From positions 13,456,310 through 13,520,309 of the forward strand of contig JAJEKV010000041.1 in the NCBI GenBank assembly GCA_021234155.1: a stretch of 64,000 nt of DNA, read 5' to 3'. This document shows positions 18,016 through 53,723 of this stretch, one piece after another (within the stretch, counting starts at the first letter, position 1; the number at the start of each line of letters is the position of its first letter). Both the position numbers and the translations under genes were made by a program. The notes beneath the pieces are model-generated. The model saw nothing but the letters and a program-made list of their open reading frames with translations, was not told the origin of the DNA and did no database searches. The DNA comes from Isoetes taiwanensis. Its lineage: Eukaryota > Streptophyta > Lycopodiopsida > Isoetales > Isoetaceae.

Positions 18016-19968
18016 CCACGAAACCACCGGGGGCCAAAATTCCGGCCACCTGGCGGAATATTATCTTTTTTTTTTTCCGATAATTTTTTTTTTACCTTCT
18101 TTTCTGTCGGCGATGGCGGAGCTCCGGAGCTTCGACGATGGCGCTATGTCGATCCGTCAAGGAGCTTGACGATCTGACCATTTTTTGGAGCTGCTTGCAT
18201 CTGGCGCTTCCCTTAGGTCGACTGTTTTCTCGGTGCCGAGCTTTTTTTTGAAGATCAAGTGTTGTTTTCTTTCTTCCAGGCAAGTTTTTGGCTAGGGAAC
18301 CTCCTGCTTTATGTTATTGCTTTGCTATTTGGTTGTTACTAACAAATTTTTATGTTTCTTGTAGGAGATTGTGAAGTATTACCCTGAGTGTCGACTTTCT
18401 TGCTTGATTTGTCGAAGTTTACGTATCTTTGGTCGAAGTTTAAATCGCGCCATTGGTCGAAGTTTGTGCCTCTGTTGCAAGGTTGCGTGAGGGTTGCGCC
18501 TCGATTTCGTCATGGATCGTTTCCTAGGTTGGAGTTCGTCTAAATTTTAAGCTGGAGGTTTCCTAGGGTTGGAGTTCTTGGAGCTACAGTAAACCTGTGC
18601 ATTTGTGTAAGGTAATATTTCTATGTTTTTGCATGCATGTGTGTTTTTTAAGTTGCATGTATGTTCGTGGAGTCGCATGCGATTAACGAATTTAATATGT
18701 TATTCTGAGAGCTAATGGCGATGGAGGAAGCCGTGGTTGTTAATTTGTCTTTGTTTTGGAGTAGCCCTTGCTTATGCTGCTGTAAGTATCAGTCCTTCTT
18801 TTTCCTTGGATTTGGGGCCTGAGATGAACATTCTGGACGACAATACATATGCTTGAGGATGAGACTTCTTTGCGGAGAGGTTAATTCAGAAAGCACCTAA
18901 AGCTTCAGAGGTGGAGAGTTTGTTGAAGGATTTGGAGAATGAGCCATGGTTTCATCAGAGTTTATTGAGCCCCCAGTTGAAGGGAAAGGAAAGTCGAAAA
19001 GAGTTTGGCCGACTTAGATGAGCAGATGTTGGGGAAGTGGATAAGGGTGGAAGGGACAGTCACGTAAGCAAACCAATTGGGCTAGGAGGAAATTTGATGC
19101 ATGGAGATCCTTTGTGAAGGATGATCCTAAGATTACCGCTTCACCCGTCTGTACCAATTGAAGAAATACCACATTTAGAACCGAATGAGATGGTGGTTAG
19201 GTTTCATTGCGGTGAGGAAGAAAGACGGATCGATGTTTCCTTCGGCGGGTAAATGACTTTTAATTTATGCTTTTTTCTATTGAAACTTATGCATAGTTTA
19301 TATGTCTTTGGTTGCAGTTTAAATTGTCTTCTGAAAGCGATTGGTAAGATTGTTCGTAGTTTACGTGAATCGAAAATGGCTACCAACGGTATTAGAGTAG
19401 AGGCATTTAATATCATGAGGGATCCTTTGTTTGTTAGAGCTAGATTGGCATTTGTTGCGCGATCCGATCAATCTAGGAAGGCTGATATTGGAGTTTCACT
19501 AAGAAGGCATCCCTAATCCCTTATAACTCAAAAGAAGGATCTTCTTGTCGCCTTTAGATTATTGCATTAGTACACCAAAGGGTGTACAAAAGAGGTCAGG
19601 CTTTTACCTTTGCTCTAGGTTTTGCGTCGTGGGCTGGTGAGTTATATGAAGTGAAGGATGTAGACTTGTCTCCGAGTCCGATGGGAAGAATGAATATCTG
19701 GTTTATAATGAGAGGATAAGCAAGACTTGGGGAACTTCAGTGACGAAGTATGATCCAAGCCACTTTCGACCTGCAATCTGGAGTTACGAAGATGATTTTG
19801 TTTTGACATATAAATAGCTTGTTCGTCATCTGCCACCAAAGGAGAATTCTGCGCCAAGGCCACTGTTCTTGCAGGCTATTTCAAATTATCGGCCAGATGT
19901 AAGTTTTTTTTTTTAGTTTGTTTTTTGTATTCTTTCTTTGCTCATTTCTTTATTTTGTTATAGGCATG

Positions 19969-19993
19969 AAGTCGTATTTAATTAAAGTGGGAC
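19969..19993 (+). repeat. Left terminal inverted repeat of element A
   Basis: 25 bp beginning AAGTCGTATTTAATTAAAG, the exact reverse complement of 35582-35606. Confidence 0.88.
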
Positions 19994-20164
19994 AAATCTT
20001 GAATTTTGGGACTCGGACTGAAAATGGGACTCACACACCATAAAAGAAATTTCTGAATTGATTGCTTGAATAGAATTATACATGACACACATAGAATTGG
20101 GTTACTTGTTTTCCTCATAAATTTTACAAACTACTAGTTGAGATAGTTTTCAAACTTCTCAATA

Positions 20165-22311
20165 TTATGTGCCCTCATACAATGATATAGCATGGAGGTT
20201 GCTCATGGCCTTGTCCATCTCCCTTCTTGGGATCTTGTGTGTGTTGTCCTTTGCAACGTGAGAACTTGGATATGACCATACCACACACTCCACCAATTCC
20301 CTCCTTTGAGGGTCAGCATAATTTGCCCTCCACTTCTTCTCCCAAAGCCGGTTGTATTGCTCCTTCAAGTTGCCCTTCTTGTGTCTCCCAATGGGCTCCC
20401 AATATTGAATTTGGAATCCAGGACGCAACTCCTCTCCATCGCATAGTGGTGGTTACATCGAGAGTGCCACCCCTAACCATATTGGACAGGCCCTCATCAT
20501 CGGGCCTTACTAGCACAAAGTATCCTTCCTTGATGTCCTCAAAGGATCCCACTCGAAGATCAAACCACTTCGGGCTTTGAGGCCTTACTTCCCACAAACC
20601 ACTTGGAACCCTTGTTGGGACCCAAGTGAGCATTCTTAGACGTGCTTGCACCTTGAGAACCCTCCCATCTTGACTCGGGCAAGAACCCGCCTCTTAGCTC
20701 CCTCCCACATGGTCGCTCAGTTTCTAAGCATGTCACAACTTTCTCCCAAAGACTTGATTAGGGAGTCCATTTGATTTTTCTTAAGAGTGGAGGTGTGCTT
20801 TCCATTTCAACATCATCCCAAGCTATCGTATGTAATCCTTGATGCCCTTCACCAGGTTGGCTAGAGTCTTTGACCTGCCTTGAAGGGAGGTATTGGTTTT
20901 GGCTGCCCTTTAGGAATGAGAACTTCACCAAGAAGCACCCTTTGCCACAACTCGATACCTTGTACAGTGCATCCACAACTTGTCACCTGGTTCCACTTAT
21001 ATTGCATGATTGGTATTCCATCCCTAACCCAAAACTTGAACTGAAGTGGCTTTGTGTGTCATTAACCGGGTCCTTACCATCTAGCAAGTATCCTTCTACA
21101 AATGATTTCCAATCTGCAACCTCATCCATCAAGAAAGCCATTGGGTTGGGGTCAATGCAGCTCTCAAACACATCCATTAGTTCAGTGGAGAGTGGTCACG
21201 TTTTCTCTCTTGAGCTTGGTGGAGAAAGTTCCAAAGAATCCATCTATATCATCATGCGTATGCCCAACCATCATGAATCCCACTTTCACAACTTTGAATA
21301 CTCCCACCGCTGCCAAGTATGACATAGCCCCAAACATCCATCTATTCTTGTTTTTCCAACAGGTTGTCCAACTCAACACATAGCTCCTCGGTGATTTCTC
21401 AAGTAAGGGAAATCATCCCAAGTCCTCCTTGATTCACCGCACACCTTGGATGTGAGCTTTTTAGTCGCCTTTGGTAACAAAGCGGTTGATCATCCATCAA
21501 AGCCTCAAAATGGGTGTTTGAGGGGAATACCTCCTCCCTTCTATCGATCCTTTCTCTAGTGTTCTCGCACTTGAAAATAGAGCTCACATGGAAGTTTGGA
21601 TCATCTCTCCATAGATCAAGCACAAAATGACCATATGTTCCGGGTTCCATGACCATGTGTTAATACACCCGCCGGACTTACTTTCATCCGAAAAGCGTTT
21701 GACAACGCTTTGGGTAAAGGATCTAGCTTTGGCAAGAAAGTCTTGTGTTGGTCCATCTTATCATGAATTATACACAAAATTTGTCCGGGCCGCATCTCGT
21801 AAAATGTTCTCCACTTTGCCAATACAACCGCCTACATGATATTTGGTCCCTTTGGTGATCTGCAAATTGCTCCCTAATTGCCATTCTTTCTTTCTCTATT
21901 GCAGTTGATGCAAGTGTATCCTTGAGTTGAATGCAAGTGTTGCACTTTGAGAATGGCATGTGTTGTAGGACACTCACGTCTAAGAAGTGAGTGCTCCATA
22001 ACTTGTCTGAAATGTGATTGAGAAAGAGGCCTACCTCCAGTAGTTTCCGTGGATGGAGTTGACCTCCTTAAGGCACTCCTTTTGGATATAGTGTTGTGGC
22101 AACACTCTTTGCACCACTTTCGCACACCGTGCTCGTTCACCTTCGACTTGTGGGGCATAGATTGAGACATGTATCTCACAAAGCTCTCAAGACCTGCAAT
22201 GGCCTTGAGAGTATTTGCTCTAGGTTTCAAAGTGAGTGCATTACCATGTTGGAACAAACTGTGCCCTTTTCTAACCTGCTCCCAGTATCTGTAAAATGAA
22301 GACTTGCTCAT
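20165..22311 (-). pseudogene. DUF7869-like transposase of element A
   Basis: Minus-strand pieces in several frames read in order MSKSSFYRYWEQVRKG, MPFSKCNTCIQLKDTL, ILCIIHDKMDQHKTFLPKLD, GTYGHFVLDLWRDDPNF, KNKNRWMFGAMSYLAAVGVF and VGFMMVGHTHDDIDGFF. A C-terminal part follows with VADWKSFVEGYLLDGKDP and IQYWEPIGRHKKGNLKEQYN. This matches my memory of the eukaryotic DUF7869 family, in which HDKMD, a DN-x-KN site and GHTHDDID are the conserved acidic motifs and plausibly form a DDE/D-type active site. All three are visible. About 700 aa in total, starting close to the palindromes at 22399. Multiple frameshifts are present, so activity is unproven. Confidence 0.62.
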
Positions 22312-22398
22312 TTGAGATTGAGGTGAGTTTACTTTGCTCTATCGGTGTTTCGACCATTTCGAGAAAAACTCGCTTCCTTTCAATACCTTTTTTTTCAT

Positions 22399-22421
22399 TC
22401 TCGACTCGCGAAGTCGAGAAA
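22399..22421. repeat. Single CTCGACT palindrome near the transposase start in element A
   Basis: Reads TTCTCGACTCGCGAAGTCGA then GAA, the same motif as the large array in element B, about 90 bases upstream of the transposase frame. A weaker half-site pair lies at about 22352. Confidence 0.6.
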
Positions 22422-22964
22422 ACTCGTTCCTTCCTCGACCGGATGTCATCATTTCGGGGAGTTCCATGTCAACGACTCGGATCATTGTCATTGGATACCG
22501 GGCGGTTCACGCCGCGAGGAGGAGAGTGCACTCCACAAAGACAATCGAGCAAGACACCGCCCTGCGGCCCGAAAAGGACCCGAAAAGATAATGATCCCGC
22601 GATTTGGATCCCGATGAACCGGAAATATGGTCGAGCCAAACTCCAATCGGGATCCAAATTGTCCCGCCAAGCTTGTAATATTTGACGTCAATGGAGTATT
22701 AGCTGCGGTATACCACGATAAAGACGTCCCCAGATTAACACCTCGCAGATCCCACACCGAATCGAGCATAAAATAGTGTATCCGAGGCCTAGAGCTAAGG
22801 AAATTATTGAATGGTGCATTGAACGGGGATTCGAAGTGGGCATATGGTCTTGTATGGCAAAGAAAAATATTGTCAATGTTCTTGGTGTTCTCGGCATTTC
22901 AGTTTTGAAGTTCAAGTTCATTTGGGGAAGCGAAAGGGTCGAGCATGTGTCGGACCTCGATCCA

Positions 22965-23557
22965 TGTTTTGGGTCTGGGTTCGGGAACTCCTGCAAGACA
23001 GCCCTCTGTGAGGACCCTTGGATCTAATAGGAGAATCCTGGGGACTATGTCACGCGGGATTTGCAAGAAAAGAACAAGAAGAAGAAAACGGAACAGAAAA
23101 GAACAATGAGAGGAAAATGATATGCTTCCTTGATATCAATGATGAACATACATGAGCTCTCGCAATTGAGAGAAGACTGAAAAGAGACAAGACTCAAAAC
23201 TCATCTAGCCATCATATGCTAGCTCTACTCATATATATAGTACAATGGCCTCTGGCCCAATATAGACACTTTCGGACCGATCTCTGCAAATCACGGAAGG
23301 AGGCCCGATTTGCAGAATGTTGGCGGTGCCTCTTGAAATGCCTAGAATCACGCCTGACGCCGACACGAAAGGATGTGGTCATCACTTGTCCGAAGGGCGC
23401 TCTTGTTGACGGGGGACGCAGGCTTTGACTGCGTGGTCTGCTGCTTGGTCTTCTGCTGAGCCTTTGATGGCTGACCCATGCCTGTCTGTGGATCCTTGAG
23501 CTTGACCTGGTCCGTCGTATGCATGAATAGTCCTGAACCAGGAGGCACAGACTAACA
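22965..23557 (-). repeat. 3' LTR of the Ty3 element
   Basis: 593 bp beginning TGTTTTGGGTCTGGG and ending GACTAACA, preceded by ATCCA. Many small indels against the other LTR fall at CTG/CAG and CG sites. Confidence 0.82.
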
Positions 23558-26500
23558 CTCCCCCACCAAATGACACTTCGGTCACCGGAGAAAAGGAGGA
23601 AGTGCTTCCAAGGTGGGAAACCAAAGAATGGAAAGTGATCCTCACGAATGAGGGCGGGCGCCATTATGGTAATGAGCAATGAGGTCTTGAAGGCGTGTTT
23701 GAAGATGGGCGCCACCATGGTGTTGGAGCCCTAGGGCGGGATGGGCCTTTTAGCCCAATGAGGAAGTGATAGCCAAACCTTTACCTTCAAATATATCCAT
23801 GTCTTCCGCTAAACCTAAGATGGGCAAATGTAAGGAACAAACAACACCAATGTATGTACTCCATGAGAAGGCAAGTTTGAAGATTAGAGGAAAAGGAACA
23901 ATGTAGTCCTTTTTTTTTTTAGGTTTTGAACATTGTCTTGATTTATGTATTTATAATAAATTCAATGAAAATGATTGGATTCTTTTAAATTACTATTTAA
24001 AGAGCCCATTTTGATGCATTTGAAACGAAGAAACCGCCATTTAAGCCAAGCATTAGAAACTTCTAGCCGGTTTTGAAGGTAGTTTAGCTAAACCTATTTT
24101 GGCTACACTAAAATATAGGAGATCCATGCTTCCAGGTGAGGTGGCGGCAACAAACCGCAATGAGAAGTGTCAAGACCATGAAGAGCATCGGCATTCGGAT
24201 TTTGACGCTTCTATTTAAAGAGTCCCACGAGAGCCACGTAAACCGCTTGACGTAAATCCAATTTTCAAGGTAAGTGTCCAAAGTGGCATTTTCCTCCCAA
24301 TTACCGAGCTGCCATTTTCAAAGTGTCCAAAGTGGCATCCCTCCCAATTGGACCGATCCGACAAAGATCCCCAGAGATCCGCGGAGATCCGACCCAGCCG
24401 TGGCCATCCATGACCTTCGTCCAAAAGGGAAGACGCCAATCGGAAAAAGAAAGGAACCGGGCGGGGAGGGGCTCCTAAGGAAGCATATGGAGAGGGAATC
24501 ATGCCCGTGTGCGTGGGTTGCGAGCCATGTCCCCGAATGTTTGAACAAGATTTTGATCAAGAGCACGCGACACCAATGGTCCCATTCAAGTAGAGAGTAA
24601 TTGATAGACAGGAGGATTGACCCAACCGTGGGAATGGTCTTGCTTTCGAGAAGGCCACGCGGAGTTGATTGTAGCCTCCCAAGTCTTTGCATATAAATCT
24701 GAGCAAACTCAAGATCATCGAGTGCGCCGATTTTTGTTTACTGTTCCAACGTTTCAACCTGCCACAGAGGTAAGTGCTGAGCCAATTCAGGCATGTACTC
24801 TTGTTCAAAAGTCTGAGACTGAGCAGGATCCTGTAAATATTTGTTGGTTGGTGATAACAACCAAGCAGCATTTGAGTTGCCTTGAAAAACACGATGGGCC
24901 TCATCCCTAATTTATCCCGGAGATCCGCCGGGTAGAAGTCATGAAAACATAAGCCATGGGCTGAACAACTTCGGAAGATGACTAAGTCGGGATCTTCAAC
25001 CGTGAGCTGATCAAAAACTAAGAGGGCACAAAATAAACCCTTGTCTTCTATAGAAAGATCCGGCCAGATCCGAAGGAAGTCCATACTTTTGAGTGGCTGT
25101 TGATGAACATTGCCATTGGCCGCATACCATTTCAAAAGAAAGAGGTGCCGTCGGGCCACCACATAGTCAAGATAGCCGGAAGGAGTAGAGAAGTCCACCC
25201 GGGGATGTTGGTGGCAATGTCAAGATATCCCTCCTATTTGGTTTGGGCCTCCTCGGCCAGATTGAACTGCTTGCTGGAGCTGATGTTCAAGGTCACGGAT
25301 TCGATGCTCTTTTTCTAACAAAAGACGGGACTGATCACGGACCCGTTTACTAGGAAGCGTGGCATGTGAAGAGGATTGCCCCGGAGTATGGAGGCTGGCA
25401 TGGCAATCTCCGCGTCATCGATGACCTTTTGTTTCCCGAGCCTCCAAAAGCCGAACCGGAGGGACGTTAACTGATTGGTGAGCGTGGAAAGCTGAGCTTC
25501 AAGGGAGGTGAGTCGAAGCTTCACGCTCGGTGAGATTTTGAACGAGTCTTTGTAATTGTCACAAAGCTCTGAGTACAAGGTGTCTAGCTTAGCAATGTGT
25601 TTCTCCTTGTCACTCGGAAGGTATCTTTGGACTTGTTTTGTTCCAATAAGTCCCTAATTTCAGTTTGGAGCTGCGCTGATCTGTAAGTAGGCGGGTCTGA
25701 TCCCGAAAGCACCGGTGAGATCTATACGGCCTGTAATAGAGCCGCGCGTGCTTTTCTTGAAGTTGGGCTTCCGGGGTTTGAACATGGGCGTGGCAGCGAA
25801 AGGTCTCTTTGAACAACAGACGGAAGCCTCCGTGGGACGCCTCTCTCACCCGACCATGAGAGCCTCCCTCGATGCATGGAGTCGCATGGCAGCGGCTTGA
25901 ACATCTTGGCCGGAATTTGTACAGAGCCGCCGAGGATGGGGAGGCGCAGGCCCCGCGTCGCTTTGTCCGAGATTGTTGAGAGGCATGACGGGAATTGGAA
26001 GGCGTGGCCTCGAGGAAGAAGAGGAGACAAAGATACGCGTGGTCCGGATGTTGAACAGACGAGGGAGGTTTGGCGGAAAGGGTACTTTGTTGAGTTTGAC
26101 GTACTGGGAATGCAGAGAGCTACCGAAAGTGGAGGTATGGGAAGTGGAAGGGCTCTCAAGAACTGGAAGATAATGACGAATGAGGGCCCTGAAGATGGCT
26201 ACCCACGGAAATTTCGTGAGACAGAGGAGGGGTAGCCCGAATCGCGCGGCTTTTGAAGAAGACAGAATAAAAAGCCGAGGCCAATCGACATGCAGTGGAG
26301 TGAATGGCGTTGATGACCATATTATAAAACGGCTTATTGATGTGGGTGTTCTTAATGGAATGCCCAAGCAATTTTCGCCACAGAAACTTCACAAAAGTCT
26401 CATGGGGTTTGGCAATATTTGTGAGGCGATGCTGGTTGGCTTGATAAGCAATAGCGCCAAACTGAGTGACATCCATGTCCTGTAAAGCAGCCCAAGAGAC

Positions 26501-27900
26501 AGAAGGTTTTTGCAAAGGGATGTGGAATACCTCAGAAATCAAATGCCGAAAATAAAATGGTGGTGCCATCGACCACCGTAGCAAATCCTTCCGGCCGTTG
26601 ACGATGTGTCGCGATGAACTACAGAATTCTATTTATTTGGGGCGGGAGCTCCATTTGTGAAAATTCGTAAAGCTTGTGGCGTTCTCAACTTCCGACTCAG
26701 ACCAACAAGGGCCTCTCGAAAGGTGGGCCGAGAAAGACACGCACTCCAAAAAGAGTCGCATCCCTTGGAGCGAAGCTTGTAGTGTAGAAAGTTTGGGGGC
26801 GAACATGGCGAAAAGCCGCCGAATAGAAGGAACTGCTTGAAGAAGGCGAGAGCAAGAGAACAAAAGACGGCGGGGAGAGAGGAAAAGGTTTAAGGCCGCA
26901 AAGGTGGGCGGGGGGCATGATAAGGGGCGGCCGCCGAAAACCGCTGATGGTGCCAGGTGTCGAAAGATGCCAAGGAGGCGATTTGAGAGGCAAAAATTTG
27001 GCTAAGTCCCCAAACAACAAATGGAGAAGGAATGAACGGTGGAGATGAGGCGTGAGAGAATGATGGGATGTGACAGGTGGGCAAAGGACACACATTAATG
27101 TCCGGACGGCGTGAAAAGAAGAAATGGCATTCAATGCCGGCAACCTCGGTGGGATATCATTAAAAGGAATGTGTCAGAAGGTACCATGGCTAGATTTGCG
27201 GCGGGAGAAAAGATTCTCATTTTAGAAACAGCCTTGCATTGCAAACACGTTGGCGATTTGTGTGATTGGTCCACGTCGACAAGGAGTTCCTCAGTTGGCT
27301 ATATAAGACGAACCGGGAGTAAACGAAGGCATCCGATGGCGCCGCATGGCTCTTCTTTGGTTTGAACGAGGACCGCACTATGCCCAATTTAACCGTCGAG
27401 TGGATTACCCGCAAGATGAATTGTCCGGACCTCTGGGCCGCCACAATCGCGTGGCGTGAGAATGGGCGGTGGTGTCTTGGGATGGTTGAACATCCCGACC
27501 CAGACCAACGGGATGGAGGTGGTTCTCGCACCTTCGGGATCCCTGAGAGAACCTCTACCACATCCTGCGCATCACCTCTGCTCCAAACCCGGGAGTAGAG
27601 GGTTTTTCTTCTTAGGACTTAGTAGATAGGGCTCGAGCGTTTTTTGTATATAGGGCGATGCCCATAAGCGGAAATAAATTTGGCTGCACATTTTGTAAAA
27701 AAATTTCCACCTATAATATAAATATGCTTGCTGGTTTTAGTCACTATCTTTTGTGGTTAATGCGGAACGACATGACTGCTCGGATGTGCACTTTACGTTG
27801 TATATATGAAATGTTTTGAGGCGAAAGCCATTAACCGTGTAGGTAATGGAGTTCCATCTAATTCAGCCACCGGAAAAAGCGGCGGGTTTAACCTCTTGGG
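23558..27900. other. Unassigned 3' region of the Ty3 element
   Basis: Between integrase and the 3' LTR. Minus-strand open frames at 24557-25198 (GYLDYVVARRHLFLLKWYAA, DFYPADLRDKLG), 25315-25578 (coiled-coil-like LTSLEAQLSTLTNQLTSL) and 26156-26584 (PPFYFRHLISEVFHIPLQ) look protein-like in composition but match nothing I can name. The position recalls the extra ORFs of plant Tat-lineage elements. Confidence 0.45.
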
Positions 27901-28016
27901 CAATTTGATAAGGGCCAAGCCATGAAAACTTTAGTTTACCCGAAAATTTTTGTAATAGAGAGTCATAAAGAAGAACCAAATCTCCTTCTTTGAATGTTTT
28001 TTGTCTTCATCGTTTG

Positions 28017-28900
28017 TCATGTAGAGATTTTTGCAACCGTTGTCCATGAAGAACACAAATATAAGCATCCCTTCGGTTCATCCAACTGTTCCAATTGATA
28101 GACCCTTTCTTTGAGTGCAAAGAAGTGGATTATGGGCGTGCCAGTTGAAAAACAGTGTTGGAAGTATGTATTCAAACGCATGAGAGCTTCTTGACCATAA
28201 ACCAATTTGAAAGGGGTGTGACCCATAGCTATTTTGAAACAAGTATTGTAAGCCCAAAGAACAAGTAGGAAGCTTGTTTTGCCGGTCGGTCGAAGCGTCA
28301 CAAATTTTCTTGAGAATTGTGACCGTAGTTTTGTTGGTGCTTTCAGCCAAACCATTCCCTTGAGGATAGTAAGGTGTGCTCTTGTGATGATGTATCGAGA
28401 GATAATCCGTCGGCTCCTTGATGGTGTGATTGATAAAATGGACACCACGATCACCCACCAGCTCAGGTAAGGGCGGCCGAATCGCGTGATGATTTGTTGA
28501 TAGATGACTTTGGTTGTCTTTGGCCGCGGTGTTGTCCGGAAGTGCGCAAGCTTCCGCCCATTTGGTAGCATAGTCGGTGAGAACCAGAATGTAGCGGAAC
28601 GCAGGGTGCCGCTGCAGAGGATCGATGGGTCCCACAAAATCCATTCCCCATTTGTTTGAAGGGAAGTGGCGTGGCAACCGGCGTCAAAGGAAGAGCGTCC
28701 GCGGGCCGTGGGCAGTCCCCACACAGGCAAGCATCACACGCGGCGGGCGTGGCGTGGCGTCTTTGAAGAGCGTGGGCCAAAAATAACCAAAGAAGAAGGA
28801 TTTTGCGTCGCGTGGTGTCTCCATGAAAATGACCACCTCCGGAGCCCTTCATGGGCTTCTCGAACAATATGTGGGACCTCATGAGGGAGGACACCGTCGA
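28017..28900 (-). pseudogene. Ty3 integrase
   Basis: The core reads NKWGMDFVGPIDPLQRHPAF, YILVLTDYATKWAEA, VGDRGVHFINHTIKE and TPYYPQGNGLAESTNK, supplying the D,D,E catalytic residues (GMDFVGP, GDRGVHF, NGLAE). Further N-terminal sequence with a degraded HHCC zinc region lies to 28900. The frame shifts several times. Confidence 0.85.
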
Positions 28901-29619
28901 AGGATGGTATCCTTACCCTTTTTGTAAAGATGGCCTGCAACCATGGTGTAGTCCGCGGACCTCGGAGAAATTGATGTCGACGGGATTGTCGCTGGTGGAG
29001 AGCGTGGCGTCCTCCGTGGAAGAGCTGTGAGGAGATCTTGCTGAAAATCATGAAACCAATGAGGTGTTGCCGTGACCAAAAAGAGTGGAGCCGTCGGGGA
29101 AGGCGTCCGAAGACTCCGGTGGAGGGATCATCCGTAATGGATCGTGAAAGATAATCCGGGACAACATGAGATTTGCCACCTTGTGAACAATTTCAAAGGT
29201 GCAAATTCTTGCGAAGGAGGACCAACGAAAGCATGCGGCCCGTGGTGGATTTGTTGATCAAGTAAAGAAGTGCCCGGTGGTCAACAAAGAATTTGATTTG
29301 ACCGCCCAAAAGATAGTGACCGGAGGCGTTGGACGCTTGAAAATTAAACCCAAGGCTTCTCGCCTGCGTGGCGAGTAGTTGCGTTCAGCCGAAATTGAGT
29401 TCCGGCCGGCATAGCGGTTTGGTTTGTCGATTAATGCGCATCATATTCTTGAGAAAGAACAGCTCCAATAGCAAAGGCGGAGACATCGACATGGATATGA
29501 AAGGGCTTGTCCCATTGAGGAGGAACAAGAACCGGGGCACGAGTAAGCAAGAGCTTCAAGCTGTTGGAAGCGGCATCCACACGGGAATTCCAAGCCCATG
29601 TGGATTCATCACCGTGAGT

Positions 29620-30350
29620 TTATGAATGGGATCTCGCAATGGTCTGCCGAGTCCGGGGAATGAAGGTGGAGTAATAATTGACCTTACCCAAGAAAGAGCG
29701 TGTTTCCTTTATATTGGCGGTGCTTGAGCCTTGAGCACCACCGTGATTTTGGCGAGATCCGTGGTGATACCGCTTTGCTCGACCACATGTCCCCAATGAG
29801 AACACACGAAGTGACGCAAAAGGTGCATTTCTGGGGATTGAGACTAATGCCGGACTCATCACATTTCTGAAAGACAAGTTCCAATTTATCCAAATGGTCA
29901 GCCATGGAACTGTAGGCGAGAATTCATCTTGAAAAATTTGCAAGAAGGGATTTTCCTTCATAAAATCATGAAAAACTGAGAGCATGATACGTTGAAACGT
30001 GGATGGAGAGTTTGATAATCCAAAAGGAACCACCTTGTAGGCAAAAGTGCCCCATGGTGGTGAAGGTAGTCTTGAGTTGATCAGATTCTTTGATTGAGAT
30101 CTGATTGTAGCCAGAAAAACCATCCATGAAGGAGTACATCTCATGTCCAGCAACCTCTTCCAGAACCTGGTCTGTGAAGGGAAGGGGGAAATGATCACGC
30201 CCGTGGCGATTGAGTTTTGTTAGTCCACACAAACGCGGATCTTACCATTGTGTTTGAGTGCAATGACGATGGGGCTCACCCACCGAGAATGTTTGACCTC
30301 ATAGATCAAACCTGCAGCAAGGAGTTTGTCAATTTGACGCCTTGGCCGAT
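29620..30350 (-). pseudogene. Ty3 reverse transcriptase
   Basis: Motifs in order: VSPIVIALKHNGKIRVCVD, TKLNRHGRDHFPLPFTDQVL, YSFMDGFSGYNQISI, then YKVVPFGLSNSPSTFQRIM; these are fingers-palm motifs of Ty3 RT. The catalytic FxDD segment is damaged near 29920 and the frame is broken at least three times. The RNase H part (about 28900-29600) is too fragmented to delimit. Confidence 0.83.
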
Positions 30351-30846
30351 CAATGCATAATTGGGGTTGAGCGGTGCTTGTCGTTGCTAGGCGTGCATCG
30401 GAACTTGGTAGGAATGGTGAGTTCCCCAAGGTTTTGTTGATCCCAGAAGATCTCTCGAAGCTCCGGCGAAAATGTGTTTGAACTTTTGAAAAAGCGTGGC
30501 GGACGCCCTGCGATGTCTGGGTGTCTAAGATTGGCGACAATCCGGACCGGTGATTGTTGCCCTCGCCCACAATCTCGGCGTCGAGTCCGAATATGGGGAT
30601 AACTTCCATGTCCCGGACAATATGAGCGGGAGGTTGAAGCATAACAGGATGTGTGGCTCTGGCGTGGTGAAAAAAAGAGAGGTTCTTTCGAAGTTTCCTC
30701 AAGCAGAGGTTGCTTCATGACAGCGTGTACTTCCACAGGAGCTGCAGGAGGTTCAGCGTCTGAAAAGTGATCAACACGTTGGATTCGATTGCAAGGAGCC
30801 AGGTAAGGGTCAAGCAAAGTAGCCCTGACCTGGTCCCGATCAAGAG

Positions 30847-31395
30847 TCATTTCTCCCCAAGGATCCAAGATACCGGGGATAGGATGATGAGGCGCTTCAT
30901 GAGTGGAGCCTGAACTTGATAAATATTCTGGGCGTCCTCAGAGTCGGTGTCGGAGAGAGAGGGTTCAGCATTGTCGACGGAAATGATTTTGCCTGTTTCC
31001 AAGTCCATGGTGGCATTGAGGTGACCATCAGTGATGACTAACTGATCCGTGGCCCAGTAATGAATGCTCTTGGCCTGGCGGAGAAAAGGTCTGCCGACCA
31101 ACATTTCATAATCACCTGGATCTTCTCCAGCCTTCCAAACACCAAATTCCAAGGGGAATCTGAGATCACCTATGTTGATGTGAAGAAGAGGCGTGACGCC
31201 TTGAGGTCTCGTGATATGGCCATTGGCCAATTTGATGTCATATGGGGCACGATAGAGTTGTTTGATGCCCATTTGTTTGCGGAGTTTATCCGTGATGAGA
31301 TTGACCGCGCTACCTCCGTCAATTTGAACATGATTGACTTGTTGATTGCCCACCGTGGCATGTACCGGAGTAGAGGTAGCAACAGCCCCAACCAA
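30847..31395 (-). pseudogene. Ty3 retropepsin-like protease
   Basis: An open stretch beginning VHATVGNQQVNHVQIDGGSA and continuing VNLITDKL, LANGHITRPQGVTPL and DYEMLVGRPFLRQ. The active-site triad is DGG where the family usually has DS/TG, which may affect activity. It releases Gag and Pol products in the particle. Confidence 0.72.
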
Positions 31396-31669
31396 AACAA
31401 TGGGAGTGGTAATCGGTCCTTGAGAGCGGGACGAGTTTCAAAATGGTGGCCAAGCTTAAAGGAATTTTGATTTTGGCTAGCTCCTCTTGGAGTTCCAGAG
31501 GCACATGAGAAAAAAGGATCGGATCCGGATCCACAAAAAGTGCGTGGTAAGGAAGCAGCAACTTCTTTGAGTAGGTCAACCTCCGCAATGATATTGGGAT
31601 ATGTCCGAGGCGTGGAGGTTGAGGCGGGAAGGTGCGTCTTGTCGTTGTTGAGCTCGTGGTGGCATGGAC

Positions 31670-33390
31670 ATTAGCCAGCGTCGCGGCCTTCAGCAGCTTG
31701 CATGAGGTTCAAAATGCTTTGGCGAACTTTAGGCATGACATTCGCATGAGTTTCTCCAAGTCCGGTGCAAAATGGACCTTTTGTCTTCTGCGCGATGAGG
31801 AATTGCGTCGATTCGCAAAGGCGGGTTCGCGTACCATTAGGAATAATGGTTAAAGGGGCGTGACGCCTGGTGCAGCGTGAAACCAAACCAACCCAATTTG
31901 ATGGTTGGGATCGGAGGATTAAGAGCACGAAAAATTTCTTCTTCGTGCTTGTTGATCCATCTCGAGGTTGATTGGCGGGGAGCTGGTTGATAGCGTGATT
32001 CTTTGGGCGCTGGTGGCTTCGAAGAAACGGGGGCCGGGCCTTGTTTGCCATTAGCAATCGAGTTGGTAAGCCGTGGAGGCGGACGGATGTGGTCCGATTG
32101 GTGCCGAAGCCGCAACCTGAACTTGGGGAGTTGAGGACACGCCGTGGTGGTATGACCCCATTCTTGTGATGATAACACCGAAGCTTTGAAGGATCAAAAG
32201 GAGAACGTGTGTTGGGTCCCCGTTGTTGCTCTGTTGCTGATAGAGTTGATTGGGTTCGCGCTGCGGTGGTGGCTGGCGATATGGCGATTAGTCTTTGAGG
32301 TGTTGTTTGACACTTGATAAACCATCTTGTTGCGGAAAGGTGTAGGATGAGTGCGAGTGCATTCTTCCGTGGCATGATTGCACATGTTGCAGCGTTTACA
32401 ATGAGGCGGGCCATTGGTGGAGTTGCACTCATTAGCCAAGTGGCCTTGATATTTGCGCATATGGCACCGGTCCGATTAAGCGGCTATGGATTGGCGTGTT
32501 GAGGTTGAACAAAGATGCAGGGAACCATGGCGGGTGGAATGAAAGGGAGCTCTCAAGAGCCACGCATACGGGAGGAAACATTGGCCGAAAGGATTGACAA
32601 GATCGATAGCCCGCTCCAAAGTCTTAAGTCAGCGGTATTGATCATGAGTCCGATAGCTGGAGGAAGTCCTTGGAGAAACCGAGACCAAGATCCGCTCGCG
32701 GTGGGGTATTCCTTGAGTTTGCTTGGCGAGAATGTGAAGACGGTTCCGCAAAATCCCAGGCGGGAACTCAGCGGGCTCTTGTTGAAGGTCATTGAGTTGC
32801 TTGAGATGAAGTTGATCATCATCCGTGGTCCCATAGTGAAAAGAAAAGCGGTTTTCATTTCGGACCAATCTTGTTTCAGTGACTTTTGTTGGACATGAGC
32901 CATTGATGAGGGAGCCACGCAATGTGGTGGAAAAAGATGTGGAATTTCAGTTGAGGTTAAGCATGACCATTCGGATAGCCGAGCCTCAAATTCTTCCATG
33001 TGGACCTGAGCACTTTGGTCTAAAGGTTTGCCTTTCGTGTTGCCAAAGGTGGGATAAGTCAGCTTAAAGGGTCCGAAAGGTAGAGGTAAAAGTCTTTGGG
33101 CTGGACCCGGAACATGATAGTGAGGATATTGAGGTGGAGTTGGAGGGGTATGGTCTTTGGAAAGACCTGGCTGAAGGGTGGGCGAGGTGGGGTGCTTGGA
33201 GGTGCCTGATCATTGGGTTTGAGGTCTCAGTAAGATTGTAAAAGGAAGAAGAGGTGGGAAAGGTAGGGGAAGGGAAATTCTGGGGAGGAGCAAAAGAGAC
33301 ATGTGGATATCCCCGTCCACCCAGGAGATGATGGTTGTATGAAGGCGCAGGCGCATGGGCCGTAAGAGTGATGGATGAAGGCATGTTCCG
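31670..33390 (-). pseudogene. Ty3 Gag
   Basis: The C-terminal part carries two cysteine-rich knuckle-like motifs (CRKYQGHLANECN-like and CKRCNMCNHATEEC, about 32340-32460). The N-terminal part (32553-33390) is proline-rich, then has PSMAHVQQKSLKQDW and FLQGLPPAIGL as in plant Ty3 Gag. It is split over at least three frames. Confidence 0.65.
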
Positions 33391-33715
33391 GGGTATGAAA
33401 GTAAGGTTGAGCAGTGGGGAGCGGATAGGGCTCTTGATAGTGATGAGGGAGACTGAGGGTCATGGAGCAATGTTTGCACGCTTTGGAGGAGGAATTTAAA
33501 CGGTAGACACACGCAGGGTGGGTGGCGCCGAATGGTGCCCTAGACCGAATGTGGCCTCAATGTCATAAGCAGATCTATACATGTCACGAAACCGCTTCCC
33601 GTCAATGATGGCGCCCAATCGAGACACCGTCTGGAAAGAAGTTCTTCGGGCGTGGAAGTTTTAGACGCACATGGCGACGTAAGAAGGGAAAAGCAGATCG
33701 CACCGGCAGCAAGCA

Positions 33716-35581: not shown

Positions 35582-35606
35582 GTCCCACTTTAATTAAATA
35601 CGACTT
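35582..35606 (-). repeat. Right terminal inverted repeat of element A
   Basis: Ends in TTTAATTAAATACGACTT immediately before the second CATG. Confidence 0.88.
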
Positions 35607-40950: not shown

Positions 40951-40998
40951 TGATGGCCCGGTGGGTAGGCATGTGGGGCTGGACACTTCTCCTCCCGG

Positions 40999-45604: not shown

Positions 45605-48107
45605 TGAGTTATGCTTCATTTTACGCCATAGATAGCGTTCCTCATTTGTGGGATGTGCTTCCACAAATGCTGTATACCGTATAGGGTCTAAGCACAATAT
45701 TGGGGGGCAATTTTTTTGTCGCCGACATAGGGTGCTGGGAGGGTGCTTTATGCCTATTTTTCTAATTTTAGAGTCCATTAACGAAGAATAGCCTTGAGCA
45801 CGAAAAAACGCGAGCAAATTAAGGAGAGATCGGTAGCCCGCCAAGAATCTCTTCCCAAAATGTGGCTATCCCTCCAAATTCCAGTTTGTATTTGCTGCAT
45901 TTTCTTTTTTTTTTTTTTTTTCAAGAACAGATGGATTTGGTTGAGCGGTATGCTGCCGAATTTCAAGCAAAGTTTGGGGATGCAGATCCGGAACTTAAGC
46001 AAAAGAGTTGGGATTCGATCTTGAAGCTGATATACCATAAATCTTGGTACCAGAAATTGAGGCATCGAGTGTTATGGTTGCAAAAGAATTATCAATTTTA
46101 GGAACCTTCAATTTTTCCTTGTGATAATGTAGTTTCCCCTATAATTGAAAAAGAGAGTCCTGCTGGCCATAACTGTTGTCCATGTATTCAAGTAAAATGC
46201 AAATGTATCTCATCAAATACAGCTTGCAGGAGAATAATGTTTGCCAAAATAAGGATGCAGAGGAAGAGAAGAGCAGAAAGATTAGCACTTGAATCTGCAT
46301 CCAGTCCTCACAGACTGGCCACTCGAACCAAATAAATTGGCAAAAGGTATTTTGGATAATATTCGTAGTGTATGCAAGAATTTATTTCAAGATGATAGGG
46401 ATGAAATCTTGGCAAGAACAGGTCAGGGATTGCCAGAAATTGGCATCATGGCACACAAGGAATTGTTTGCAGTTAGGCAAGTTGTTGATAATGTGAAGAG
46501 CAGTCTTCAAACTAACAAACTAAGAAGGAATCAGGATATGACACAAGCAAGATCATCTACTCTTATAATGGCCGTTAATAATGCTAGCAACAAGTCTCGA
46601 GTTGCAAAGACTTTAAACATAAAGAGAAGGACTGTGTATGCTGCTTTGGACAAGAGGAAAGCAGCTGCAATTGGTGGGCCCTGGTCCATGTTTAAGAGAA
46701 GGGATAGAAGTGATAAGCTCTCTTTTAAAGATCGAGAGAAGATATATAGTTACTGGGTTTCTAACACAAGAGTATCTCCCAACAAGAAACAAGTTGTGAA
46801 GCTTAGGAGAACCAATGAAGGAGTCAAGATTTTGAAGCCATATAGGTTGCATCCCATCCACTTTTTGGAAGAATCTCATGTTAGTGAAGTTTGAAAATAT
46901 TTTAGTTTTGAAATTCTTAGTAGTGTCAATTTACTGCTACATATGAAGATTTGAAGTGTAAATGTTCTGGTTGTTGAATATGCTTTTATATTATGGCTAC
47001 AATTTGTGTGGCTTGACCTGCAAGTTGTCTTCTACAAAAAGTTTTAGAAACAGAATCCTGACATCAAAATAGATTTGAGAAGGTTTGAGTGCTTGAAACC
47101 TTTGTTTGTTAGGAGACTAAAAGATCGTGAAACTTGCATGTGCATTTATCACATGAAGATGGAATTTGTGAGATAGACATTGAATAGAATTAGAAGAGAC
47201 ATAAACACACATGGAACAAATTGTAAGTGCAAGTGTTCAATTTGTGGTGCTGGAGACCTTTGTGAAGCAAAGGAGAAGACTTTTAATAGTGCTAGTGAAC
47301 TATGGAGGTCACTGGTATGTTCTAAGGCAGATGAGGATCTTTGGCACAAAGCAAATTATCTAGAACTTGATTGTAGCTCATGTGGAATAAGAAAATTCAA
47401 AAGATGTCCAAGGGAGAAGAGCGCTCTTCGGACAATCGATTGGAAGAACTTTGAGAAGGTATGTACATGTTTAATTCATTGTGTTTGCATTTGTATTCAA
47501 TATTTGAAAAAACATGCAACTGATTCAAATAAAATCTGAAACTAACAATCTGAAACTGTATTTTGTTACTGCAAGTTAAGGAGACAATAAAAAGGAATGT
47601 GGGAAAGGATGGTTCCATCAAAGAGAAGACCAAGGATATCATGAGGCCAGTCTACAAAACAACAACATTGAAAGAGTTCATGTCTCATGCTGAATCTGTT
47701 ATGAAGCAGTTCATTCCACATAATTACACAGTTAGGTGGCAAGCAGAACAATTTAAGAACTGTCTTCAAACATTTCCAAAAGGTACTGTGGTTTCTGTTA
47801 TAGATTTTGCCGAGAATTTCTCCTTCAAAGTTCAACAAGAAATCCAAAGCATGCATTGGCATAATGACCAATGTTCCATCCTAGTTCATATCACTTACAG
47901 ACATGCCAAAGATTCTGAAATCCCACACAGTATCAAGATTGGTGACAGAAAAAATGTCAAAGAGACACATTTCTATATATCAGACGACAAAAAACATGAA
48001 GTCACATTTAATTAAAGTGGGTCAAATCTCGAATTTTGGGACTCGAGCTGAAAATGGGAATTTTTTCATAATAAAACAACAACAACATTCACAAAGAGCA
48101 ATCTGAG

Positions 48108-48432
48108 AAAAAAAGGGGAGACGGTGGAGAAAGAATGATAGGAAGGAAGGGAGATGGAAGGGAGGAGGGACGAGGGAAAGAGGCAAAGGAGCAAGGGAGA
48201 GGTAGGAGGGAAGGGGAGGAAGGAGGCACAAGGGAGAGGGGTAGAGAGGCAGTGGGATAGGGGAGGGAGAGGCATGAGAGAGGAGAGGGAAGGGGTTTAG
48301 GGAAAGGGGTTTATCTTTAGGCAAAGGGGCAAAAGATGGGGCAAAAGGGGTTTAGAAAGAGAGGGAGGGAGGGAGAAGATGATGGAAGGGAGGCAAAGGG
48401 AGGGTTAGGGGGCAAGAGTTTGGAGGGGAGAG
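48108..48432. repeat. Homopurine tract of about 325 bp
   Basis: The plus strand is almost wholly G/A with runs such as agggagggagggagaag and interspersed gggg. Only scattered pyrimidines interrupt it. Confidence 0.85.
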
Positions 48433-49805
48433 GATCTGCCTTTAAAAATATATAATTAAGAAATAAATATTATAAATTAAAGAAAGAAATTAAATTTCAT
48501 ATTAAAATTAAAAATTAAATATTATATTAATAAAATAAAATAAATTATTACTAAAATAAAATTCTCAACCTTCTCGACTCATTAGTCGAGAAGGCAGAAG
48601 GCCTTCACAAAAGATTGCAGTAGCTTTGAGAAGGAAAAAGGAAGAACTTTTTGTTAATAGCGATGATGAATCAGAAGCTTGGTTTCCAATCAGAAGCTTG
48701 GTTTCCTTGGTCGCTAAGGTGGTCGCTTCCTTAGCCGGCATCGCTGGCTTCACATCGCCTCCTATTTTCCAAATGTGCATCAAAACAACAGAATCTGCAA
48801 AAAAAGCCAGATCATAGCAAGAATTTATTTGGCTCTATACAAGCTTCCTCGTCTTCAAAAGCTCCAAATCTTGATCAACAAAGTCTTGGCGACATCAAAA
48901 TCGTCTTCACATCTTAGCTCGTTCATCCGAGAAGATGGAAAACGTGGTACACATGGTCTAACCTTTGGAAAGTGGTGTGAAATCCCATCGGGGAATCTGC
49001 AAACAGACACAGCGAACGGAGCCAAAAAGGGAAGCGAAACAGACCGGGTTGAGGGGGGCGCAGAGTGGAAGCGGCGAAGGTCGTGCACAAAGCCGGGCGA
49101 GGTCCCGGGGAAGGTGGGAAAGAAGCAAAGGATTAAGGATAGATTACAGATGTAGGATTAAGGAGGTGCCGGAAGAAGCAAAGGTGAGTGGCGAATCAGA
49201 GTTTCGATTGGGCTGTCGGAGGCAATCCAGAATAATACAGTGGGCTCAGTAATTGCCAGAGGCAGACCGGTGGGCTCTGGAATCTCTCACTCTCAGATCT
49301 ACATGCAGGAGCTGGAGCAGATTCAACACGGCAGGAGCAGATTCAACACTTACTCCAACACGGCAGGAGCAGATTCAACGGCTATGGCCCCATTAGGTCG
49401 GGTGCTTCAAACCTTTTGCTTCGCAAGCTCTCCGTCAAATCGGTTCTTCCTTGCGCTCTGCTTCAACTCTTACGCCCACGAGGGTCTACGCTTCAAATCG
49501 ATTCTTCTACTAAGAATTGGTTCTTCTCCAAATCAGTGCTCTTCTGGTTAGAGCTAGAAGGAAAACGGAGCTTTCGGCCCGGGCCTTGGTCGCATTGTAC
49601 CTCTGCAAATGTATGCCTGGAGATGGCGGATCTCAGGCCAGCGCCATAGCCGCTAAGCAGGCCTCAGTTCCGACGTCCTTAAGAGGCTCCCTGTTGTCGG
49701 ATACCCCTTGTCTGAATACTCTGTTTCTGACGAAAAATGGAGGGCAGAACAAGCTTCCACCATTTCGGCAAGAGCCGCCCAGAGCCCCATTCCATCATAC
49801 AGAAA

Positions 49806-49880
49806 AGTAGAGCAGAGCAAGGGAAGATGCAAGGCAAGCCGGAAGAGCAGAGCAAGGGAAGATGCAAGGCAAGCCGGAAG
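49806..49880. repeat. 35-bp tandem duplication in element B
   Basis: Two copies of gagcagagcaagggaagatg continuing caaggcaagccggaa. A second small repeat, aggagcagattcaacac, occurs three times at 49310-49380. Confidence 0.8.
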
Positions 49881-50121
49881 CTGGAAGCTGGGTCCGGCAT
49901 TGTGTACAAGTTGCTTATTGCTTATTGCCGGAAAGCCCATTATACAGAAATCAAAGGTGTTCGCTGCCTTAAACTGGCCCATGAACAGATCGATGAAGAG
50001 AGCTCCCATCAACGACTGTATATCAGAGAGATTCAGTGGGTATGCTGAAGATTTGCTGAAGGTATCGAGGATGCTAACACTCCGGAAGCAGATTAGAGCC
50101 ACTCAGAAGAACAGACCCAAA

Positions 50122-50617
50122 GGTATGTACCAAATTTTAAATTTCAAGTATAGGCGGGAAAAAAAGGCGGGGTAAACATTAAAAAGGGTAAACATTAATA
50201 TAAAAAAAACGCGGGGTAAACATTAATATATTAAAAAGGGTAAACATTAAAATAAAAAAAATGCCTCGTTCAAAAATAGGAGAGGGTCCATTTGTTTTCT
50301 ATACGTATACCTAGAAAATACATAGCATATAGTGTCCATTCCAAGATACATAAGGAGGGTCTATTTTTTCGTAGAAAATATAAGGGGATGGTTTATTTTT
50401 TCGTAGAGAATATATGGTGTCCATTGGAAAAAATACATAAGATATTTTTTGGTCTTTGGAGTTATGGCGTTAGGGAGCTATTTCCAAGTGGTACATAGTG
50501 TCCATTGGAGCTATGGCGTTGGGGAGCTTCTTCCAAGTGGTACAAAAGGAACTTCTGTCGCAAAGGTATGTACCAAAGTTTAAAATTCAATCATGGGCGG
50601 GAAAAAAAGGCGGGGTA
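50122..50617. repeat. Direct repeats in element B
   Basis: A ~52-bp segment from ggtatgtaccaaattttaaa to aaaggcgggg at 50122 recurs at 50565. Between them are degenerate repeats of ggtaaacattaatataaaaa and of gtagaaaatacataag-type sequence. Confidence 0.7.
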
Positions 50618-50989
50618 TTAGAAAAAAAGGGGTAAAATAATACGTTGAAAAAGACACAAAATGGGGACAAGTACATATTAATATATAGGTCTAATGCTTA
50701 TTAATAGATTTAATGCATAGTAGGTTATAATGTGCATTATAGGTGCATATGTTGCTATTTACATGTGCATTAGGCATTACTCTTTACATAGCTAAATATG
50801 AGCCCAATGGTCCCCTCTTCATATAGCTATATGGTATGGTCTATTAGAAAGGGGGAGGGTCCATCGGATATGTGTCCATTAGATAATACATGGGGAGGGT
50901 CTATTTTTTATGGAAAATACGTAGGAAATTTATGGGGAGGGTATTTTTTCATAGAAAATACATAGGATGTTTGAAGGTTATTCATTTTC

Positions 50990-51855
50990 GACCTTCTCGG
51001 ACTCTGAGCTTTGAAATTGCCCTTTTTTTTCGACTTGCGAGTCGAGAAAGGCCCTCAAACTTGCATTTTTCGCTTTGAGCTGCCTTTCTCGACTCGCGAG
51101 TCGAGAAAGGCCTTCTGACCCATAAAACCTGTGTTTCTCGCTTTGAGCTGCCTTTCTCGACTCGCGAGTCGAGAAAGGCCTTCTGACCCATAAAACCCGT
51201 TTTACGGCTTTGAGTCGCCTTTCTCGACCCTGGTGAAAGACCTCCCGGCTATAAAACGTGTTTTTAAGCTTTGGTTTGCCTTTCTCGACTTCAGCCAGTG
51301 AGAAAGACCTAAACCCCTAAAACTTGCATTTTTTAAACGAGAACGCCTTTCATTTCGCGGTGAAAGACTTCATTCCATAAAACTGGTTCACGGCTTTGAG
51401 AGTTGCCTGCGACTCGTGAGTCGGCGAAGACCTCCCAAACCTAAAACTTGCATTTTAAACTTTGGTGCCTTTCTCGACTTCCTTGGTCGAGAAAGACCTC
51501 TATAAAACACTGGTTTTACGGCTTTGGTACGCCTTTCTCGACTCAGCGAAAGTCGAAGAAGACTCCCATTTCTAAAACTTGCATTTTTAACTTTGAGCTG
51601 CCTTTCTCGACCGCGGTCGAGAAAGGCCTTCCGACCCATAAAACCCGTGTTTCGGCTTTGAGCCCTTTCGACTCACGAAGTCGAGAAAGGCCTTCGACCC
51701 ATAAAACCCGGTTTTCGGAGCCTTTTCTCGACCTCATGAGTCGAAAAGGCCTTCCTCGACCTAAAACTTGCATTTTTCGCTTTTTGCCTTTCGACTTCGA
51801 AGTCGAAAAGGCCTTCATTTAAAACCCCATTTTCCCTTTGAGCTGCCTTTCTCAT
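50990..51855. repeat. Array of about 14 palindrome-centred units in element B
   Basis: Units of about 60-68 bp each hold a palindrome whose core is CTCGACTCGCGAGTCGAG flanked by GCCTTT and AAAGGC. Two adjacent units (51080-51112 and 51149-51181) hold a perfect 30-bp palindrome. Spacers carry TTTGAGCTGCC on the left and TTCTGACCCATAAAAC on the right. Units at about 51217, 51279, 51344, 51404, 51464, 51530, 51598, 51662, 51718 and 51783 are degenerate. The same motif occurs in element A. Confidence 0.88.
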
Positions 51856-53723
51856 GCCTGTATTTTTCAAAAATGGCCCTAAAAACTATGTTTTATTATT
51901 TTTTTTTTTGCATGTAGCATCACTTGACTAATTTGATTTTGTCTCTTGCAGTCCTTATCTCGACCAAATAGTACATGCTTGGGAGCAATGAAAAGATCAT
52001 TTCATTAAAGAAAGATGCCGAGAAGAGGGTGGTGACATCAGTTGGACATACAAGCACGAGCCCAAAAGGAACTCCTCATACAAATTTCTATCGCCAGTGA
52101 AGTTGTCTGGACTAGGAGAGAGCTCCACGCGCCCTTTGCACTAGGTGGTTCATGTGTGAAGAGGGTGTAATGATTGTGCCCATACGACCACTATGGTCTC
52201 TTCACCCACTGTAATATATATTGTAATGAGCCCATTTATAAATATAAGGTATCTCAAAACTAGTATTTTTGGGTGATTAAGTAAACGATTTGCATAATTT
52301 TTGTTGGAATTTGTGATCTATTGTCTACCCACCTAAGAAAATAGAGCCAAAATGTTCAACTAAGAATCTTTTTCAATTAGAACTTGATAGGTCTAATGCA
52401 TGTTTGCGTTGCATTGTTCTTGTTCTCGACACGCTATCCAAGAAAACTGGAAGAAAAGCTTGGATGCACACTAATAGACAAAAATTCCAATTATGGCCAG
52501 TTTTCGGGTCGGGGTGCTTCTTTTTGTGTAAATTAACAGGGTTCCGAAAAAAAATGGGAATGGAATGAGTCCCACTTTAATTAAATACGACTTCATGACA
52601 ATTTATTTGTCCAGCATTGTTTGCAAAAACATCACGAGTTTTTGTTGAGCAAGGGAGTTAATTTGTCAAAACATGTGTTTTGGTCTGATGGATGTGCCTC
52701 CCAGTTCAAATCTTCTAGAGCTTTCTACTTCTTAGGCAGATTCTACAAGCTGAAGGGGATTAAGATGCAGTGGAACTTTTTTGCCACATCACATGGTAAA
52801 GGGGAACATGACGGGGTTGGAGCTGTCATCAAAAGAATATTGACGAGTGAAATGCTTAAAAGGGACAGCACACCCTTGAGGAATGCTGAAGATGTTGTCA
52901 ACTTTCTTATTTCTTATTTCAGTTGCAAACAAACTTCAAAGGAAAGCAACACACAAAGGTATTAGTTTTATTCCATAGTGTTGAGTAATTTTATACTGAA
53001 ATTCTTTCTTACACCCAAAACCGTTTATTTTAGGTCTGGCTTGTTAAGTTGGGTGATGTGAACAGAGATTTGCCATATGAATGTGATACTTTAGCAGGCA
53101 CAAAAAAGATTCGCACAATCAGGCCTTACTGCCAAGATAGGCCAACTGAAATGGCACATAGGCATCTCTCATGCTTTTGCAGATTTTGTTGGAGAGAATT
53201 ATGGTCTAAACGTAGACATGCATCTCGGCTTGGAGATTATTCATTGTCAACCCTGATTCCTATGGTCTTCGAGTAGGAGTCTCTTGTCCACCATGTGCAG
53301 TATGAGGGGGACAATCAATGGAAAGCAGAAATGGTTGAAGTAGGTGATAACTTTGTTGTGAATGCAGAGGAAGGAAATGATGAGAATGTGGATTTCTGGA
53401 TAATCAAGTGCATTGAACCTAAACATATTGTGCAGCATGCATTCAAGGACTATTGGGGGTCTAAGTTCAACAGGCAGCAGGTTGTCTTGTCAGGTAAGTA
53501 TTAAAAGTTCATCGGAGATGGTAAGTATGAGCTGTTAGACAATATGCCTGATGTAACTTGCTATACACACCTTGTAGTTTGTGCAAAGGTTGAATTGCAG
53601 GCTGCACATGGTGAAAAGGGTGTGTTCTGCCTCTCAGACGATGCGCATGAGCAGATTATTGAATATTTGCCTCCTCCTTCATCCGAGGCACTCGCTGCCA
53701 GCCCTAGTACAGAGGAGGATTGA

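Follow-up and report, generated by a model that had tools for sequence, protein, structure and literature searches.

Here, we analysed a stretch of 64,000 bp from the genome of Isoetes taiwanensis (GenBank assembly GCA_021234155.1, contig JAJEKV010000041.1, positions 13,456,310 to 13,520,309 of the forward strand; hereafter 'the window'), which carries two transposon insertions with terminal inverted repeats (TIRs), named element A and element B. Element A (15,638 bp; 19969..35606, plus strand) is bounded by a left (19969..19993, plus) and a right (35582..35606, minus) TIR of 25 bp, which are identical at 25/25 positions. Element B (4,595 bp; 47999..52593, plus) has TIRs identical at 22/25 positions. 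All four flanks read CATG, present as target-site duplications (TSDs) at 19965..19968 and 35607..35610 for A and at 47995..47998 and 52594..52597 for B. Analysis of further copies in the source genome suggests that A and B very probably belong to one cut-and-paste family with a variable 4-bp TSD, in which the small copies, such as B, are Pack-type elements and the transposase is presumably a protein with the Pfam domain DUF7869.

A preliminary description of this DNA had proposed that A and B belong to one TIR transposon family, with common ends of the 25-bp type, CATG flanks and homologous subterminal sequence, and that removal of either element restores a host reading frame. These proposals were borne out. 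Four TIR matches lie at the positions given there, against 0.11 expected by shuffling (0 of 100 shuffles reached four), and with CATG included in the count A and B are 91% identical over the left 65 bp and 88% over the right 198 bp. Scripted rejoining of the host flanks left the reading frame open with exactly one CATG and broken with none or two, for A and B alike; the host frame across the A site also spans a predicted intron, which ends 1 base before CATG. A single composite element from 19965 to 52597 is unnecessary to explain the arrangement, since each of the two has a TSD and an empty site of its own.

The gene hit by A (window about 19600-36600) is tyrosine recombinase-like by eye (SVTRMSMAGVPAEIG, YDRS) and gave no Pfam match; because of this appearance, A may sit in a gene of another mobile element. 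The gene hit by B (window about 46286-53300) has a helix-turn-helix-like N-terminus, below the Pfam cut-off, and the stretches VIDFAENF, WSDGCASQFKS and HGKGEHDG, which by eye resemble another DDE-type transposase; its core is without a Pfam match.

Thousands of ends genome-wide support the family to which A and B were assigned. The family TIR of about 25 bp reads AAGTCGTATTTAATTAAAGTGGGAC, with termini AAGTC..GACTT, and the 19-base end AAGTCRYATTTAATTAAAG is matched exactly 1,616 times on the forward and 1,673 times on the reverse strand of the 1.66-Gb source genome (reversed control: 0). For the first 100 ends listed, of 3,289 in total, we paired adjacent inward-facing ends less than 20 kb apart. 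This yielded 28 inward and 0 outward pairs. By length they form two size classes: 17 pairs span 2.6-5.8 kb and the other 11 span 10.7-14.6 kb. TSDs were read for 32 elements, comprising all 28 pairs, A, B and two copies found by common cargo. An exact 4-bp TSD was present in 29/32 (27/30 outside the window), and the longest repeat was exactly 4 bp in 26 of the 30 elements formed by the 28 pairs together with A and B. The 25 tabulated exact TSDs from outside the window are A+T-rich, and only four are palindromic.

Is CATG then the target of the family, as the preliminary description had claimed? Both insertions in the window (2/2) would fit specific insertion at CATG, but this tetranucleotide is found in 0/27 exact TSDs outside it, and we regard such a preference as practically untenable. 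The check suggested there, a genome search for inverted end pairs with a table of their flanks, thus uncovered copies without CATG flanks and overturned the target claim; since there is no CATG among the 27, we attribute it to chance that both insertions in the window lie at CATG. A literature search on CATG-targeting transposons found nothing relevant among the papers listed. The length of the TSD, previously left open by the palindromic target, is settled as 4 bp: the TSDs are variable and mostly non-palindromic (21/25 of those tabulated outside the window are 4 bp and non-palindromic), and parses with a 0-bp or 2-bp TSD within CATG are therefore ruled out.

The larger size class bears genes. 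We read six long copies of 11.7-12.5 kb (C16, C22, C35, C60, C15 and C33; L043-L054), which align mutually in blocks at 77-95% identity and carry a DUF7869 gene near the left end on the minus strand. The piece of this gene from C33 scored 84 bits against a Pfam cut-off of 26. NIF/HAD phosphatase-like ORFs (open reading frames) lie on the plus strand of the long copies; the one tested scored 17.3 bits, below its cut-off of 21.8. The 12-kb copies also hold further ORFs without an assigned family.

A retains a degenerate, frameshifted copy of the presumed transposase gene (DUF7869, PF25273; 20168..22338, minus), which scored 76 bits in a first reading and 112 bits when frame shifts were followed. 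Its acidic residues occur in HDKMD at 21762, LDN at 21368 and GHTHDDID from 21253, spaced by about 131 and 38 codons. The location of DUF7869 inside elements bounded by TIRs and TSDs is circumstantial evidence for a role as transposase, and these acids presumably form a D-D-D catalytic triad. Pfam gave neither an integrase nor a piggyBac domain in the presumed transposase gene.

In a search for relatives of the protein, a motif scan of genome contigs gave four loci, of which L006 and L007 exceed the DUF7869 cut-off and L008 does not reach it; the fourth, L005, is unrelated by eye. L006 (893-3781, minus) encodes an open 963-aa DUF7869 protein (146 bits) with the motifs MHDKMD, QMDN and GHTHDDID, which shares 30% identity with a read-through of 12-kb pieces across 375 positions. 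Its contig is filed under a cyanobacterial metagenome-assembled genome and possibly represents eukaryotic contamination or a transfer. A protein scan of the genome contigs found no relative, and the same holds for protein-based scans of viral contigs and for phages and plasmids. Loci with a GHTH motif in viral contigs (4 + 9) showed no DUF7869 protein when their translations were read, and the TIR pattern had no match in viral contigs. A sequence search of solved structures gave no match at E <= 1.

Judged by its alignments, element A is a deletion derivative of the elements of about 12 kb. Without a nested retrotransposon and one 5-bp TSD, A measures 4,292 bp. Its part 19969-22310 aligns to all six long copies with 92.5-94.7% identity; the sequence that follows in A has its counterpart in these copies 7.1-7.9 kb farther along. 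This following sequence of A includes the first part of the NIF/HAD phosphatase-like region common to the 12-kb copies (22314..22964, plus; ORF 22722-23027; weak matches) and a palindrome, TTCTCGACTCGCGAAGTCGAGAA, at 22398..22420. The region is split by the retrotransposon, and its Pfam matches are below the cut-offs. The nested long terminal repeat (LTR) retrotransposon (11,341 bp; 22965..34305, minus) has a 5-bp TSD, ATCCA (22960-22964 / 34306-34310), and an LTR pair with 88% identity; its integrase and reverse transcriptase matches lie just below the Pfam cut-offs. It is not part of the TIR family. The right part of A (34306..35606, plus) shares homology with the 12-kb copies at their right end and contains palindromes at 34753-34774 and 34920-34942.

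The smaller size class is built differently. We compared 18 small copies, B and 17 sampled copies of 2.6-5.8 kb, all oriented by the right end, in which a query with the DUF7869 region of A found no match at E <= 1e-5. Compared with the copy L026, the left 65 bp are at least 86% identical in 13 further copies and 54-78% identical in the remaining four; the 3' part is conserved, and the right 600 bp are common to 153/153 pairs. A leader that is first G+C-rich and then A+T-rich is found in 17/18. Counted from the left end, the palindrome TTCTCGAC..GTCGAGAA lies at 536-677 bp in 14/18 copies, and at least one further palindrome is found beyond 2 kb in 17/18, while the palindrome is absent from about 54 kb outside the elements and from 40 shuffles of the window. 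A region of 130 bp around a predicted splice acceptor has a match in 16/18. Between these parts lies the block 650-1800, in which any similarity (E <= 1e-5) was detected in 4/153 pairs, and which we refer to as the cargo slot. In B, the left palindrome at 48571..48592 marks the left edge of this slot (48600..50118, plus), and its right edge is a conserved predicted 5' splice donor, AAAG^GTATGTACC (50119..50131, plus). An array of six matches to the palindrome (51027..51747) and the predicted 3' splice acceptor AG before a conserved terminal exon (51950..51951, plus) follow.

What fills the slot? A Pfam scan of interior ORFs in the 17 fetched copies, covering 85/112 sense and 62/127 antisense ORFs, recognised cargo domains in 4/17 copies. 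These are an aspartyl protease in L035, Myb/SANT-like, RING finger and PAM2 domains in L032, exostosin GT47 in two ORFs, including one in L028, and an antisense AP2 domain in L036; weaker matches to MSP1a in sense and to a KH domain in antisense orientation are doubtful. The L035 cargo could be traced to a protease gene on contig C1061, which it matches over 298 bp (98.0%) and 117 bp (96.6%), pieces that lie 5.2 kb apart there. This parent locus (L072, 7.4 kb) contains no TIR, even when up to 4 substitutions are allowed. A further 220 bp of L035 match another contig at 84.8%. Cargo of the L035 type was found at three loci with different TSDs (TTAT in L035, ATTT in L075, ATAA in L076), indicating that it moved with the element, and a fourth locus, L077, holds a partial copy that lacks part of this cargo. 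The slot of B contains degenerate pieces of both L032 cargo ORFs: about 48689-48937 is 55% identical to the Myb-type ORF in the part before the Myb domain, and about 49583-49756 is 58% identical to the RING-type ORF in the part before RING, with a weaker match (31%) extending across the RING of L032.

The slot of the small copies thus holds pieces of host genes, and we therefore consider the family a Pack-type TIR family: host fragments lie within TIR and TSD, the parent is without element ends, and one cargo occurs with several TSDs. Alternatively, the variable interiors might be fast-diverging genes of the transposon itself rather than captured host DNA, a view with which the constancy of architecture and slot in the 18 copies agrees. 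It is, however, highly improbable given the 98% match to a gene that does not lie in any element, which largely refutes it for L035, the unrelated plant-type domains in different copies and the mosaic of joined pieces.

The edges of the slot were assessed from the points at which alignments between unrelated copies end and resume. On the left, we used the first 1,100 bp of 13 copies with the left palindrome, giving 76 pairs (L030 and two pairs with common cargo were omitted), of which 49 aligned and provided 98 end values. Past the palindrome, 19 of the 98 ends lie at 2-10 bp, 5 at 58-64 bp and none beyond. On the right, where three pairs with common cargo were omitted, 112 start values came from 56/117 pairs. 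The most frequent point at which homology resumes is AAAG^GTATGTACC, predicted to be a good 5' splice site of the plant type, with 50/112 starts within 4 bp of the first base of the motif. The motif is exact in 11/18 small copies and has no more than three mismatches in 16/18. From these predicted splice sites, we infer that the cargo is placed as an exon.

Following this argumentation, we propose how a cut-and-paste family with Pack-type small copies might work. The DUF7869 protein of the 12-kb copies, acting as a D-D-D transposase, would pair the element ends, excise the element and join it, with little preference for particular sequences, to a target cut with a 4-nt stagger, and it could move the small copies in trans. 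Short fragments of host genes would be copied into the slot, with the palindrome at its left and the constant 5' splice site at its right, and the cargo, if transcribed, is predicted to form an exon spliced to the constant terminal exon. The reading of slot and cargo is based mostly on the 18 small copies of one genome and one traced parent gene.

Several observations weigh against the proposal as a whole. Forty-four of the 100 ends among the matches listed had no exact partner within 20 kb, and three elements are without an exact 4-bp TSD, namely L028, C10 (no repeat) and C16 (a 5-bp repeat, TGTAC, in the 12-kb copy L043/L044), while the TSD AAAA of L038 lies within an A run and also fits 6 bp. 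No intact DUF7869 frame was demonstrated in the source genome, the piece from C22, which covers another part of the DUF7869 gene, gave no Pfam match, and an AlphaFold model of L006 from a 4-sequence alignment had an unreadable fold (mean predicted local distance difference test score, pLDDT, 35.8). Thirteen of the 17 scanned copies are without a recognised cargo domain, and a parent gene was traced for the L035 cargo only. As for the slot edges, on the left only 21/98 alignments end no more than 40 bp from the palindrome end and 74/98 end before it, in the diverged leader; on the right, 20 starts lie 48-75 bp upstream of the donor motif, 18 elsewhere upstream and 24 downstream.

Kolobok transposons target TTAA. 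Like these, piggyBac and Ginger1 share a 4-bp TSD with the A/B family, but all three have fixed targets (TTAA for piggyBac, CCGG/CCGT for Ginger1, according to the accessible parts of PMC7351741 and PMC2836005, respectively), whereas the target of the A/B family is variable. Mutator and Mutator-like elements (MULEs) can be rejected on their TSD of 7-12 bp, as given in the accessible text of PMC10741241, against 4 bp here, and so can hAT, PIF/Harbinger (PHIS) and Tc1/mariner, for which the source texts at hand list 5-8, 0-3 and 2 (TA) bp. We lean slightly towards a new family within the known superfamily Sola. The available text of two plant reviews (PMC10741241, PMC9033089) describes Sola by a 4-bp TSD, a transposase of the DDD type, TIRs between 11 and 1,124 bp in length and element sizes of 2-9 kb with some over 15 kb, and reports it from moss (Sola1 in Physcomitrella); the TSD (4 bp in 29/32), TIR, sizes and presumed D-D-D motif of the A/B family are comparable, and the 4-bp TSDs of Sola2 are likewise A+T-rich in the portion of PMC3627910 at hand. 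The likeness is one of description, and gene-fragment cargo, found in the A/B family, is not mentioned for Sola in the available text of the two reviews.

As a tentative placement, the DUF7869 elements may instead form a superfamily apart from Sola and the other recognised ones: DUF7869 is without a named function in Pfam and its name was not found in a literature search, but the combination of a 4-bp TSD and a presumed D-D-D motif points back to Sola. Membership in the CACTA/Chapaev-type clade (CMC or CMCT) appears improbable to us. A TSD of 4 bp is allowed there, since the TSDs of this clade span 2-4 or 2-5 bp in the accessible text of PMC4482050 and PMC12730594; yet its termini are mostly CA..TG according to the latter, against AAGTC..GACTT here, and Pfam recognised DUF7869 but not a transposase of the CACTA type. 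For the clade, the same part of PMC12730594 further describes CC and HH motifs between the second D and the last E. Lanisha was set aside as a relative, being classed with EnSpm-like elements.

Gene-fragment cargo as such is already known and has precedent in Pack-MULEs and animal Pack-TIRs, for which the accessible part of PMC8277862 describes the capture of pieces a few hundred bp long and multicopy cases whose TSDs differ. The A/B family resembles them in carrying host gene fragments between TIRs, in the size of the pieces and in multicopy cargo with different TSDs, but differs from Pack-MULEs in that its 4-bp TSD and DUF7869 gene are not those of a MULE and in that its cargo, in the copies seen, occupies one slot from palindrome to splice donor. 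What is new is the host family, with its 4-bp TSD and DUF7869, its scale, to judge from 3,289 exact ends, and the recurrent slot. A more far-reaching idea is that DUF7869 marks a separate transposase superfamily whose small members have evolved a dedicated cargo slot, in which host fragments, copied in beside a palindrome, end at a constant splice donor. Each copy would then be a chimeric gene ready for use, its first and last parts constant, and the palindromes would act in the copying; we consider this unlikely. The findings show gene-fragment capture in a large TIR family other than MULEs, and the edges of the slot, palindrome and splice donor, make hypotheses on the capture mechanism and on splicing directly testable.

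The window contains other repeats besides A and B. At 62020-63144, nested inverted repeats form a long hairpin with 188-nt arms that are 99% complementary and more arms inside, possibly a foldback element or a miniature inverted-repeat transposable element. Direct repeats with 82-90% identity at 38940-39093 and 45026-45180, about 6.1 kb apart, are possibly the ends of a further retroelement. Several similar gag-like ORFs on the minus strand at 2443-5599, with a CX2CX4HX4C motif seen by eye, probably represent several Copia-type copies.

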